DNA from: Flavobacteriales bacterium
GTDB taxonomy: Bacteria; Bacteroidota; Bacteroidia; Flavobacteriales_E; Vicingaceae
Reading direction: 5' to 3'
Assembly (NCBI GenBank): GCA_020853105.1
Contig: JADYZM010000004.1
Span: 62,001-126,000 of the forward strand
DNA length: 64,000 bases
The stretch's first letter is position 1. Each line of letters begins with the position of its first letter. Both the position numbers and the translations under genes were made by a program. The notes below the pieces were generated by a model. The model searched no databases. It saw only the letters and a program-made list of their open reading frames with translations, and was not told where the DNA came from. Below, in pieces: positions 46,747-50,739 of the stretch.

Positions 46747-46787
46747 AAAACAAAAAGGGTAGTGATTTTCACTACCCTTTTTGTTTT
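46747..46787. terminator. bidirectional terminator after the gyrA operon
   Basis: A perfect ~19-bp stem whose core is gggtagtga / tcactaccc with loop ttt, flanked by aaaacaaaaa and tttttgtttt. It serves the gyrA-TPR operon and the convergent LysE gene. Confidence 0.95.
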
Positions 46788-47406
46788 AAAAATATTTATT
46801 CAAAATATGATATAAAACCCAAACTCCGAATATAATCAAAATGATGCCGAAAATTTTATATGTTTTAGAAAGGTATTCAGGACGTAAGAATTGTTTAATA
46901 CGATGTGCAGTTAACACCTTTAAAAAATCTGTGGTAAAAATACCGGCTAATGCAGCAGCGAGAAAAAGATAGAAATCATTTGAATTTCCATATTCAGCTT
47001 TAGCATTGCTGGTTATTACTATCCAAATTACAAAAACAAATGGGTTAACAAAATTGATTAAGAAGCCTTGCGTAAAAAATGAAACATAGTTTGATTTAGA
47101 TAACTTAACGGGTTCATTGGATTGTGAAAAAACAGAAGGTTTTAATATGAATTTTAGTCCTAAAAAAAATAAAATAATACTACCCAAAAGCCCTAACCAT
47201 AATTGAATTTCTTTATTCTCAAAAAATGCAATTGCACCTAATGAACATATTGAAATACATAAAAAATCGGCAAATACAATCCCTAATGCAACAGAAAGTC
47301 CTGAGCTAAATCCAGAATCTAAAGTGCATTTAAGCAAATAAAAGAATACAGGTCCTAGAAAAATCACAAAACCTAATCCTAATAAATATCCTTGAAGTAG
47401 TGCCAT
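46786..47406 (-). CDS. LysE family amino acid exporter
   Basis: 206 residues from the ATG at 47406; an in-frame TTG at 47415 is less likely. It has five to six hydrophobic segments. The N-terminus GYLLGLGFVIFLGPVFFYLL followed by GFSSGLSVALGIVFADFLCI matches the LysE/RhtB translocator family (GPxxF and the G...G..D pattern). It exports amino acids or small metabolites across the inner membrane; the substrate is unknown. Its stop codon lies in the T-rich flank of the shared terminator. Confidence 0.88.
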   Translation of the reverse strand: MALLQGYLLGLGFVIFLGPVFFYLLKCTLDSGFSSGLSVALGIVFADFLCISICSLGAIAFFENKEIQLWLGLLGSIILFFLGLKFILKPSVFSQSNEPVKLSKSNYVSFFTQGFLINFVNPFVFVIWIVITSNAKAEYGNSNDFYLFLAAALAGIFTTDFLKVLTAHRIKQFLRPEYLSKTYKIFGIILIIFGVWVLYHILNKYF

Positions 47407-47421
47407 TAATGACAAATTTAT

Positions 47422-47452
47422 AAAAAAAGCCTGAACATTTGTTCAGGCTTTA
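47422..47452 (-). terminator. terminator of the three-gene envelope operon
   Basis: The stem aaagcctgaac / gttcaggcttt (11 bp, loop attt). On the minus strand it is followed by TTTTTTTA, ending transcription from the operon upstream and lying just before the LysE gene. Confidence 0.9.
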
Positions 47453-47470
47453 ACAATACTGTGTTTGAAT

Positions 47471-47734
47471 TTATTCTGTTGATGTTGAATCTGAAACTTC
47501 TGAATGATTTCCACATTCTGATTTTTCTTTTTTACAACAAGATTTTTCTTTTTCTGATTCACATTTTTCCATTTTTTTGCAATCAGTTGATTCAGATTTA
47601 CATTCAGATTTTGACTTTGAGCAGGAAGATTTCCCCTCACAATTTCTACAACACATTTTTACAACAAAAAAAGCAACAAGAAGGGTTACTATTGTTGTGA
47701 TTACAGATGTAATAATTACTTTTTTATTGTCCAT
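47471..47734 (-). CDS. Cys-rich single-pass membrane protein
   Basis: 87 residues. One membrane segment (~7-26, IITSVITTIVTLLVAFFVVK) is followed by a Lys/Glu/Ser-rich tail with ten Cys (28, 29, 32, 38, 45, 52, 58, 66, 67, 74) and a terminal GNHSE. The 6-8 residue spacing and two CC pairs suggest metal or thiol chemistry, or palmitoylation-like anchoring, but no known metal-binding fold is recognised. Charge near the membrane segment does not settle topology. It is the last gene of an operon, 5 bases after the secreted protein's stop. The cysteines and matching codon use argue against a chance frame. Confidence 0.7.
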   Translation of the reverse strand: MDNKKVIITSVITTIVTLLVAFFVVKMCCRNCEGKSSCSKSKSECKSESTDCKKMEKCESEKEKSCCKKEKSECGNHSEVSDSTSTE

Positions 47735-47739
47735 AGTTC

Positions 47740-48204
47740 TTAAAATTTATAACCCATTAAAAATACAATACATCCTTCACTTCCAACAGCACCATTTTCA
47801 GGTATTATGTATGTTACATATACAGGTACAGATTTTTCAGGTTCAAAAGCATAAAGTCCTTCTTTTGCATTCTTTCCTTTTGAGGTATAAAGTAAATTTC
47901 TTCCTGATTTACCTGCAGGTTTGTCGTAAACAAAAATTTCAACACCAGGAGCAGCAGAAGCATTAAACAAAAGTTTATATTTTTCACTGGCAAATAATGG
48001 AACTTCTATTTCTTTTCCTTGTTTTTCTGATTTATAACTAAACGTTGTAATTGTTGAGGAGTCATACTTATAAATTGGCATCAAAAATGGTTTTAATGTT
48101 GCTTTTAATGAAGTTGCATCACAATTGTCTGTAGTTTCTTGAGCATTTAGTTGCGAAAGCCCAGTGAATAGTATAGATAAAAATAAATATTTTATAGTTT
48201 TCAT
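47740..48204 (-). CDS. secreted protein of unknown function
   Basis: 154 residues with signal peptide MKTIKYLFLSILFTGLSQLNAQ. The mature part begins DNCDATSLKATLKPFLMPIYKYDSS and continues as a probable beta sandwich (KEIEVPLFASEKYKLLFNASAAPGVEIFVYDKP), closing YVTYIIPENGAVGSEGCIVFLMGYKF. Two Cys (in DNCD and EGCIV) could form a disulfide across the domain. I recall similar proteins in Flavobacteriales, all uncharacterised. It sits 8 bases after the lipoprotein gene and 5 before the Cys-rich gene, so it is co-transcribed with both. Confidence 0.75.
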   Translation of the reverse strand: MKTIKYLFLSILFTGLSQLNAQETTDNCDATSLKATLKPFLMPIYKYDSSTITTFSYKSEKQGKEIEVPLFASEKYKLLFNASAAPGVEIFVYDKPAGKSGRNLLYTSKGKNAKEGLYAFEPEKSVPVYVTYIIPENGAVGSEGCIVFLMGYKF

Positions 48205-48212
48205 ATCTGATT

Positions 48213-49028
48213 TTAGCCTTTAGTGATATTATTTCGAATGTCAGTTACAGTAGTTTTTAATTCATTTAATTTTTCTGGAGTTAGAGCACCATTAGCATCA
48301 GTAGCTGATAGACTCGTATTGATTTTCTCTAAATCAGAAACTAAGTTATTTAAACTTCCGTCCTCGTTTGCTTGTTTAACCGCATTAATAATGTTTGAAA
48401 CAATGATTGATTGTTCTGCTAATCGATTGTTAAGTTTTTCGTTTGAATTTTTGTTAGCATTCAAAGCTAGATACATAGATTCAATCCAAGCACCTGCAAA
48501 AATAACTGAACCTGTATTGCTAGAACCGTTTTCTTCAAGATATTGATCCATGTCCATTTGTAAATCAGCCATTATACTTGTTAAAGAATCTTCGTTTCCA
48601 ACATTTTTTTCTAATCTACCAGCCAATCCAATGCAATTGATAATATCTGTCATCCAAATTTTTTCAGACATTTTTCTAAGAGCATTTAGGTAGTTGATTG
48701 CTTCTTGAGTTTGGTTGTTTGTTATTGCATAAGCCATATCAGCAGAGAAAATCCCAAAATTTACTTTCTGAGTTGATTTGTCGTTGTATTTATTGGCATT
48801 ATCAATAGGATTTGTTAAACTTCCTACATATTCCAATCCCGCACTTTTGAACAAGTTAACAATTTGAAGCGGAGAAGGTAAAACATAAGTGGTTTCATTT
48901 TCATCTACTTTTACTTCTTCAGTTGTTGTTTCTTCAACCTCTTTGGGTTCTTCATTTCCTCCACAAGAGTAGATAATAGCACTAGATACAATTGCTATTG
49001 ATATTAATTTAAAAGATAATTTTTTCAT
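48213..49028 (-). CDS. helical lipoprotein of unknown function
   Basis: 271 residues. The lipobox is in SSAIIYSC (Cys22), followed by an acidic Glu/Thr linker (~25-48). YVLPSPLQIVNLFKSAGLEY then starts an almost entirely helical domain (FGIFSADMAYAITNNQTQEAINYLNALRKMSEKI). It is probably anchored in the outer or inner membrane facing the periplasm. The VLPSPLQI motif and following helices recur in Flavobacteriales proteins without assigned function, as far as I recall. It is the first gene of the three-gene operon, 73 bases downstream of the carboxylase gene. Confidence 0.78.
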   Translation of the reverse strand: MKKLSFKLISIAIVSSAIIYSCGGNEEPKEVEETTTEEVKVDENETTYVLPSPLQIVNLFKSAGLEYVGSLTNPIDNANKYNDKSTQKVNFGIFSADMAYAITNNQTQEAINYLNALRKMSEKIWMTDIINCIGLAGRLEKNVGNEDSLTSIMADLQMDMDQYLEENGSSNTGSVIFAGAWIESMYLALNANKNSNEKLNNRLAEQSIIVSNIINAVKQANEDGSLNNLVSDLEKINTSLSATDANGALTPEKLNELKTTVTDIRNNITKG

Positions 49029-49101
49029 ATTGTTTTTCTGTTAGTGAATTAATAATACAAATAAATGAAAATTAGATGGTTTCAACAAAATTTATTTTTT
49101 A

Positions 49102-50739
49102 TTAAGTTTGAATTATGCCTACGTTGTATTTTTCTATCGGAGCATGGTTTGCTGCTTCAATCCCCATTGATATCCATTTTCGCGTATCTAATGGATTAAT
49201 AATTGCATCAGTCCATAATCTTGCAGCACTATAGTAGGGTGAAATTTGTTTGTCGTACTTATTTTTAATTGTATTAAATAATTCGGTTTCCTTTTCTTTG
49301 CTAATTTCTTCACCTTTAGCTTTTAATGAAGCTACTTCAATAGATAATAATGTTTTAGCTGCAGATGCACCGCTCATAACGGCAAGTTGTGCTGTTGGCC
49401 ATGCAACTATTAATCTTGGGTCGTAAGCCTTTCCACACATTGCATAATTCCCTGCTCCGTATGAGTTACCAATTATTACCGTAAATTTTGGTACTACAGA
49501 ATTTGCTTGAGCATTTACCATTTTCGCTCCATCTTTTATTATTCCACCGTGTTCTGACCTAGAGCCAACCATAAACCCACTAACATCTTGAAGAAAAACC
49601 AATGGAATTTTCTTTTGGTTGCAATTCATGATAAATCTGGCTGATTTGTCCGCAGAGTCTGAATAAATGACTCCACCAAATTGCATTTCACCTTTTTTTG
49701 ATTTAACAACAACACGTTGGTTGGCAACAATTCCAACTGACCATCCGTCAATTCTAGCATAACCACATACTATTGTTTTTCCGTATTCTTCTTTATATTC
49801 GTCAAATTCAGAATTATCCACCAATCTTAATATTATATCCTTTATATTATATGGTTTTTCTCTACTATCGGGTAATATTCCAAAAATTTCGTTTGGATCT
49901 AATTTTGGTTTTTGTGATTTTTTTCTGTCAAATCCAGATTTTTCGTAATCACCTAATTTATCCATTATTTTCTTTAGTCTATCTAAACAATCTTGGTCGT
50001 CTTTACATTTATAATCGGTTACACCGGATATTTCACAATGTGTTGATGCACCACCTAATGTTTCATTATCAATAGTTTCTCCAATTGCAGCTTTTACTAA
50101 GTATGAGCCGGCTAAAAATATAGAACCTGTTTTATCAACGATCATCGCTTCATCACTCATAATTGGCAAATACGCTCCACCAGCAACACAACTTCCCATA
50201 ATCGCAGCAAGTTGTGTTATGCCTAAAGCAGACATTTTTGCATTATTTCTGAAAATTCGCCCAAAATTCTCTTTATCAGGAAAAATTTCGTCTTGCATAG
50301 GCAGATAAACACCTGCGCTGTCAACTAAATATATAATTGGTAAACGGTTTTCAATTGAAATTTCTTGAAGTCTCAAATTCTTTTTTCCGGTTATTGGAAA
50401 CCAAGCTCCAGCCTTAACTGTGGCATCATTTGCAGCAACAATACATTGTCTCCCTGACACGTAACCGATTACGCCAACAACTCCGCCAGAAGTACACCCG
50501 CCATGTTCCGGATACATATCCTCACCGGCAAACGCACCAATCTCAATTTGAGGCATATCTTTATCCAATAAGTAATTTATTCTTTCTCTTGCGGTTAATT
50601 TTCCTTTTTCGTGTTGAGACTCAATTCTTTTTTTTCCTCCACCCAAATAAATCCGTTCCAAATTTCTATTCAATTCTGAAACAAGCTGTTTATTTATATC
50701 TTCATTTTTATTAAACTCTAAGTCCTCTTTTTTTGCCAT
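49102..50739 (-). CDS. acyl-CoA carboxylase beta (carboxyltransferase) subunit
   Basis: 545 residues. It belongs to the biotin-dependent carboxyltransferase family (propionyl-/methylcrotonyl-CoA carboxylase beta). The N-half has ERIYLGGGKKRIESQHEKGKLTARERI and the acyl-CoA-binding GSCVAGGAYLPIMSDE. The C-half has FLQDVSGFMVGSRSEHGGIIKDGAKM and GNSYGAGNYAMCGKAYDPR for carboxybiotin. The opening and length lean towards methylcrotonyl-CoA carboxylase (leucine breakdown), but substrate is not certain. The biotin carboxylase/carrier subunits are not nearby. A TACCTTTG box lies on the minus strand at 50769-50762. Confidence 0.92.
   Translation of the reverse strand: MAKKEDLEFNKNEDINKQLVSELNRNLERIYLGGGKKRIESQHEKGKLTARERINYLLDKDMPQIEIGAFAGEDMYPEHGGCTSGGVVGVIGYVSGRQCIVAANDATVKAGAWFPITGKKNLRLQEISIENRLPIIYLVDSAGVYLPMQDEIFPDKENFGRIFRNNAKMSALGITQLAAIMGSCVAGGAYLPIMSDEAMIVDKTGSIFLAGSYLVKAAIGETIDNETLGGASTHCEISGVTDYKCKDDQDCLDRLKKIMDKLGDYEKSGFDRKKSQKPKLDPNEIFGILPDSREKPYNIKDIILRLVDNSEFDEYKEEYGKTIVCGYARIDGWSVGIVANQRVVVKSKKGEMQFGGVIYSDSADKSARFIMNCNQKKIPLVFLQDVSGFMVGSRSEHGGIIKDGAKMVNAQANSVVPKFTVIIGNSYGAGNYAMCGKAYDPRLIVAWPTAQLAVMSGASAAKTLLSIEVASLKAKGEEISKEKETELFNTIKNKYDKQISPYYSAARLWTDAIINPLDTRKWISMGIEAANHAPIEKYNVGIIQT

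Follow-up and report, generated by a model that had tools for sequence, protein, structure and literature searches.

A conserved gene pair for a predicted helical lipoprotein and an exported protein, repeatedly duplicated in Bacteroidia

Two adjacent genes, here called A and B, in a 64,000-nucleotide stretch of DNA from a Flavobacteriales bacterium of the Vicingaceae (contig JADYZM010000004.1, positions 62,001 to 126,000; hereafter the window) almost certainly represent a conserved two-gene module of Bacteroidia that has been duplicated repeatedly. Because the two genes are nearly always adjacent, and often present in several copies per genome, they probably act jointly in the cell envelope. 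The overall reading that we favor, with some reserve, is that A would tether B at the membrane, the two forming a paired complex that binds a ligand, with the third gene of the cluster, C, standing outside it. No description of an A-B pair was found in the family libraries or in the part of the literature that was covered.

Results

The three genes lie on the minus strand, and the ORF calls agree with a preliminary description of this locus in placing gaps of 8 bases between A and B and 5 bases between B and C. Gene A (48213..49028) encodes a lipoprotein of 271 aa, gene B (47740..48204) an exported protein of 154 aa, and gene C (47471..47734) a protein of 87 aa with one hydrophobic span and a tail rich in Cys, Lys and Glu; the reading frames of A and B are backed by relatives in many genomes, and that of C by relatives in few. 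The outlines given earlier for the three products (a helical lipoprotein, a secreted beta-rich protein and a Cys-rich single-pass protein) all held up, in that A has a lipobox at Cys22 and an AlphaFold2 model consisting of helices only, B has a signal peptide (assigned by eye) and a modeled beta-sandwich, and C has one hydrophobic stretch (also assigned by eye) and, by count, 10 Cys. As had been stated, the proteins belong to no recognized family: none of the three matched a Pfam or NCBIfam family above its cut-off.

Beyond the 3' end of C lies an intrinsic-terminator-like hairpin of 11 pairs with a T-run (47426..47451, minus strand). A pattern scan returned 1 site against 0.7 +/- 0.8 in shuffled sequences, a count that is unremarkable by itself, and folding gave -17.3 kcal/mol (z -4.3), which none of 200 shuffles equaled, bearing out the claim that a strong terminator closes the genes. 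The terminator is followed by a gene for a LysE-type exporter (46786..47406, minus strand), for which the ORF list gives a TTG start at 47415; the ATG at 47406 is likelier and fits the relatives (window 47404-47415). On the other side, 73 bases upstream of A on the same strand, is an mmdA-type carboxyltransferase gene (49102..50739, minus strand); congeners and a second genus of the family likewise have an mmdA-type gene 5' of A, and we treat it as local context outside the module. A candidate Bacteroidota-type promoter of A (49058..49089, minus strand) reads TTTG, 20 bases, TTTATTTG, which departs by one mismatch from TTTG/TANNTTTG, the sequence that we take to be the consensus.

Relatives of A and B were not scattered without co-occurrence. 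Counting as adjoining any same-strand gene that matches the B profile at -60 to 150 bases from A, we found a B beside 84 of the 86 distinct A genes in 80 loci, these being the best 80 of at least 578 relatives, retrieved with A only and leaning to close relatives. One of the two misses is true (L173), and the other (L190) is an artefact in which the gene caller had extended the B ORF upstream. When all loci are pooled, having been reached by several routes (from A hits, from B hits, and from genomes in which B gave no hit), a same-strand B adjoins 136 of the 145 distinct A genes, which leaves nine solitary A genes. The order is A-B in 126 of these pairs and B-A in 10, adjacency being kept regardless, and short or overlapping junctions are common.

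The same association is evident at the level of whole genomes. Among 100 related genomes, matches to A occur in 82, and matches to B in 55 when a single sequence is used, a number that rises to 72 when the search is made with a profile built from 43 Bs; a comparison of the two tables places all 72 B-positive genomes among the 82 A-positive ones. In the ten genomes that were A-positive and B-negative, an iterated B profile recovered an adjoining B for 8 of 15 A genes, in seven of the ten genomes, leaving 7 A genes without B. Across an even sample of the phylum, A is present in 5 of 296 genomes and B in 5 of 296, the same five, and the pair is therefore patchy across Bacteroidota and common in lineages near the window. 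The named relatives, again among the best 80 of at least 578, are mostly metagenome-assembled genomes (MAGs) titled Flavobacteriales, Crocinitomicaceae, Vicingaceae, Bacteroidetes, Bacteroidia or Bacteroidales. As such, the suggestion that these proteins are conserved in Flavobacteriales proves too broad, in view of the phylum sample, and also too narrow, in that record titles of Bacteroidales- and Chitinophaga-type lineages are represented.

The genome from which the window derives contains four A genes, each with a B-type gene after it. At the three loci other than our own (L081, L082 and L083), a small exported protein begins 29, -17 and 43 bases from A, and a B profile built without these three proteins finds them with E-values of 1.1e-7, 5.4e-10 and 6.7e-7, respectively. 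The pair at L081 is preceded by a sodium/solute symporter gene and followed by an ABC transporter gene, polA comes before the pair at L082, another symporter gene comes before that at L083, and the window's own pair groups with pairs in thrS, murQ and carboxyltransferase contexts. There are, then, four old paralogous loci, marked by thrS/murQ, by polA, by a symporter and an ABC transporter, and by a second symporter, each with its own A and its own B. Some of the neighbors (thrS, polA) are housekeeping genes that offer no functional hint. Tandem A-B arrays occur at L137, L138, L149, L150 and L163; these comprise two or three A-B units, and when the loci are compared, upstream and downstream units mostly cluster according to their position. 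A different genus of the family has one A accompanied by two or three tandem Bs.

The four loci have kept their partners separate. A single clear context class could be assigned to 75 of the 136 pairs (45 in class I, 12 in II, 13 in III and 5 in IV), and in every case, 75 of 75 for A and 75 of 75 for B, the nearest relative in another locus shared the protein's class, against at most 44 (A) and 47 (B) when classes were shuffled. This shows that partners have not been exchanged among the four loci. Tree distances among A proteins correlate with those among B proteins (0.78 over 136 pairs, 0.71 within class I), and hierarchical clusters of A and B agree modestly (adjusted Rand index, ARI, 0.16-0.33, at most 0.12 when permuted); the exact nearest neighbor agreed in only 58 of 106 pairs, the class-level test being the stronger one. 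Shared descent of neighboring genes by itself yields matching trees, and it contributes here. We also observed, at L081 (5155-7936 and 1556-4615), that the class III pair is flanked on one side by the sodium/solute symporter and on the other by a protein of 1019 aa that carries ABC and ABC-2 membrane domains, and that this layout recurs in several other loci.

A possible explanation for such an association is that A and B stay together so as to be regulated or inherited jointly, as an operon, and act separately in the envelope, without touching each other. Genes of both kinds do occur alone, and contact of A with B is at present a prediction. However, the adjacency survives inversion of the gene order and holds at four paralogous loci without exchange of partners, it extends to nearly all A loci, which is more than operon inertia usually gives, and the frequent short or overlapping junctions likewise count against separate action; we regard this explanation as unlikely. 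It is likely, instead, that A and B form a physical complex at the membrane, so that the undescribed complex proposed for this operon may well exist for these two proteins, but not with C as a member.

The distribution of C is altogether different from that of the pair. Clear relatives (E below 1e-7) were detected, among 47 genomes, in the window's genome and five others, and in all five of the latter C and A-B are on different contigs. In three genomes (G001, G019 and G025), C comes after pseudouridine-synthase-like and S4-like genes (by eye); in G001 about 3 kb separate it from LysE, and in a congener (G002) it is followed directly by LysE, with a hairpin of different stem sequence at the same place between them. 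Because G002 keeps this hairpin between C and LysE, the terminator belongs to C. The A-B loci inspected in other places lacked C, which does not qualify as a third member. Judged by these gene orders, the LysE gene is ancestrally linked to C and not to A-B, and the B-C junction is specific to the window's lineage; the C-LysE block was probably joined to the A-B module recently, and in the window C may be co-transcribed with it. What stands of the three-gene operon is thus the two-gene module: across neighborhoods in Bacteroidia, A and B co-occur and adjoin far beyond chance, and C is found apart. That A, B and C constitute one conserved envelope complex would accord with the 5-base gap and the shared terminator in the window, but with C missing from the other A-B loci, its five clear relatives on other contigs, and the terminator forming part of a C-LysE block in G002, we consider this extremely improbable.

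The A protein consists of the lipobox, an acidic linker, and a conserved core that starts at an LPSP motif (residues 50-53). The lipobox Cys is present in 99% of 145 aligned A proteins, as is characteristic of bacterial lipoproteins, and a strict regular expression for the lipobox fits 79 of 108. Over the same 145 proteins, G92 (100%), E183 (100%) and R265 (99%) are nearly invariant, and P51-S52-P53, D97, Y100, D147, W181 and Q206 also stand out. With the helical AlphaFold2 model (pLDDT 83.6, pTM 0.80), Foldseek returned nothing at E <= 0.001 (the best match had 0.84), and the A sequence, used singly, has no relative in the PDB; searches of the PDB with the A and B profiles returned best E-values of 0.47 and 0.66, which are unconvincing, and a scan of viral contigs with A found no relative. 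We rejected a fold name for A, in that the best VIA match (Z 7.7 over 86 residues) was to a designed cage.

Signals for export of lipoproteins to the cell surface, located right after the Cys, have been described as being of the C-X-K-(D/E)2 or the SDDFE/SDDDD type (PMC5080379). The window's A reads C-G-G-N-E-E, which corresponds to neither type, and these signals may not be those of the host's own family. Among 79 A proteins, the frequency of D/E at positions +2 to +6 is 0.03, 0.22, 0.32, 0.32 and 0.16, and that of K/R at +3 is 0. Because its N-terminus does not fit the published export signals, our default guess is that A would be anchored facing the periplasm. The linker of A is acidic overall, an enrichment that was measured against a baseline of only 27 crude lipoproteins and that we do not count as evidence.

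The B proteins have two conserved cysteines, one near the mature N-terminus (Cys28, in 93% of 190 Bs) and one in the last strand (Cys145, in 94%), which from their conservation would form a disulfide; Y76 (97%), G144 and G151 are also conserved. The AlphaFold2 model (pLDDT 88.2, pTM 0.77) comprises one helix and an eight-stranded beta-sandwich, a predicted fold that lies near GOLD/PPC-type folds, although the second-look matches all fall within or just above the Z range that the tool calls common for sandwiches. The best structural score was to the GOLD domain of p24 proteins, which are eukaryotic cargo receptors (5azy; Z 8.8, 91 residues aligned, 2.5 A); there is no sequence relation (about 10% identity) and the cell biology is another, the likeness being at the level of fold only, and the Pfam matches of the window's B, taken as far as E 1, included no GOLD family. 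PPC/collagen-binding domains (PF04151; 5sv5, 3jqw) resemble B in the size and topology of the sandwich (5sv5: Z 7.6, 2.8 A, 92 aligned), with other sandwich folds scoring equally high. PF04151 matched one of 43 B relatives (E 3.4e-4), none of eight paralogous Bs at E up to 0.1, and, even with E-values up to 1 admitted, not the B of the window, which thus falls outside this family. B, moreover, is no protease appendage: it is exported as a protein in its own right, and it has an N-terminal helix and a conserved pair of cysteines. We rejected a toxin reading because the enterotoxin C-terminal domains that head the Foldseek list rank, on second look, among many unrelated sandwiches (Z only 7.0-7.1).

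Two of the remaining fold matches bring with them alternative roles for B. Ena endospore-appendage subunits have a jelly-roll fold with cysteines, and Ena2A (9i0y) is among the best matches to B (Foldseek E 1.1e-3; Z 8.1, 99 aligned, 3.9 A), raising the prospect that B is a disulfide-polymerized extracellular subunit and A its membrane base or assembly factor. The placement of the two Cys, near the mature N-terminus and in the last strand, and the two or three tandem B genes at some loci would suit such a polymer. But Ena proteins form fibers on Bacillus spores and have no sequence relation to B; Ena has a free N-terminal connector, whereas the residues after Cys28 are modeled with confidence as a packed helix; and GOLD, PPC and CUB folds score about equally, all of which makes polymerization rather improbable. 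Alternatively, B might inhibit or sense cell-wall hydrolysis, in the periplasm or at the surface, in the manner of the lysozyme inhibitor PliG, and be tethered by A. The fold matches do include PliG (4dzg; Z 7.5), and at 11 of 145 A loci the neighboring gene, on the opposite strand, is murQ, which encodes MurNAc-6-phosphate etherase. A Z of 7.5 is unspecific, however, and the murQ neighborhood is confined to a few branches and does not occur at the polA, symporter or thrS loci, so we hold this role to be very improbable.

Discussion

To return to the paired ligand-binding complex that we favor, A would be lipidated and anchored, probably at the periplasmic face of the outer membrane, and its helical body would hold B at the membrane. 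B would act as a disulfide-bonded beta-sandwich binding domain, and each of the paralogous A-B pairs would handle a different ligand; C would have joined the module in the window's lineage without becoming a member of it. That B binds a ligand and A provides the anchor is a guess from the modeled folds.

A bolder proposal, which we put forward tentatively and consider rather unlikely, is that the pair constitutes a new class of envelope complex, in which a helical lipoprotein without a known fold relative presents a small disulfide-bonded sandwich, and of which at least four paralogous pairs were distinct early in Bacteroidia, two of them dedicated to transporters. If this were true, the A-B pair would be a general, exchangeable binding or adaptor unit of Bacteroidia envelopes, and two of at least four early-distinct pairs would be tied to transporters (a symporter plus an ABC transporter, and a second symporter). 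In any case, an anonymous operon is replaced by a defined and testable gene pair with several copies per genome. Pairs such as this one, which have no family name, are prime candidates for components of the Bacteroidota envelope that await description, and starting points are offered by the neighborhoods with a symporter and an ABC transporter and by those with gldBC.

The gldBC neighborhood involves B genes that stand alone. We chose 40 loci around B-profile hits near which no A had been listed; among the 41 Bs in them, 21 had an adjoining A after all and 20 did not. Eleven of these 20 solitary Bs are directly upstream of hemN (L215, L216, L218-L224, L227 and L230), and the order is gldB-gldC-B-hemN wherever the contig extends far enough, with the identities of GldB, GldC and HemN confirmed by NCBIfam at L216. 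In this one genus, then, a solitary B paralogue sits in the setting of the GldB-GldC gliding operon, between gldC and hemN; neither A nor B is itself GldB or GldC, and the link is limited to one branch of B. Because an A-B pair lies upstream of hemN at L217, the solitary B could be explained simply by A having been lost in the other genus. The position of this B beside gldC and hemN indicates a possible link to gliding genes in that one genus.

A further type of solitary B was observed near a large mutase-like gene (icmF-like by eye) at L225, L228 and L229, with small 128-aa proteins also near it at L225 and L229. In addition to those already mentioned as assigned by eye, the dihydroorotase-like, infC, rpmI and rplT neighbors were named in this way. 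Two records carry titles that may be at odds with their contents. One of them, CP034120.1 (L182, 5974-9897), bears the title Glaciecola amylolytica chromosome and yet shows the Bacteroidota arrangement, in which thrS- and infC-like genes come after A-B; either a wrong title or a transferred block may be responsible. At L142, in a MAG titled Verrucomicrobia bacterium, A takes the same position as in G004:C21, from the window's family, and the title is probably wrong.
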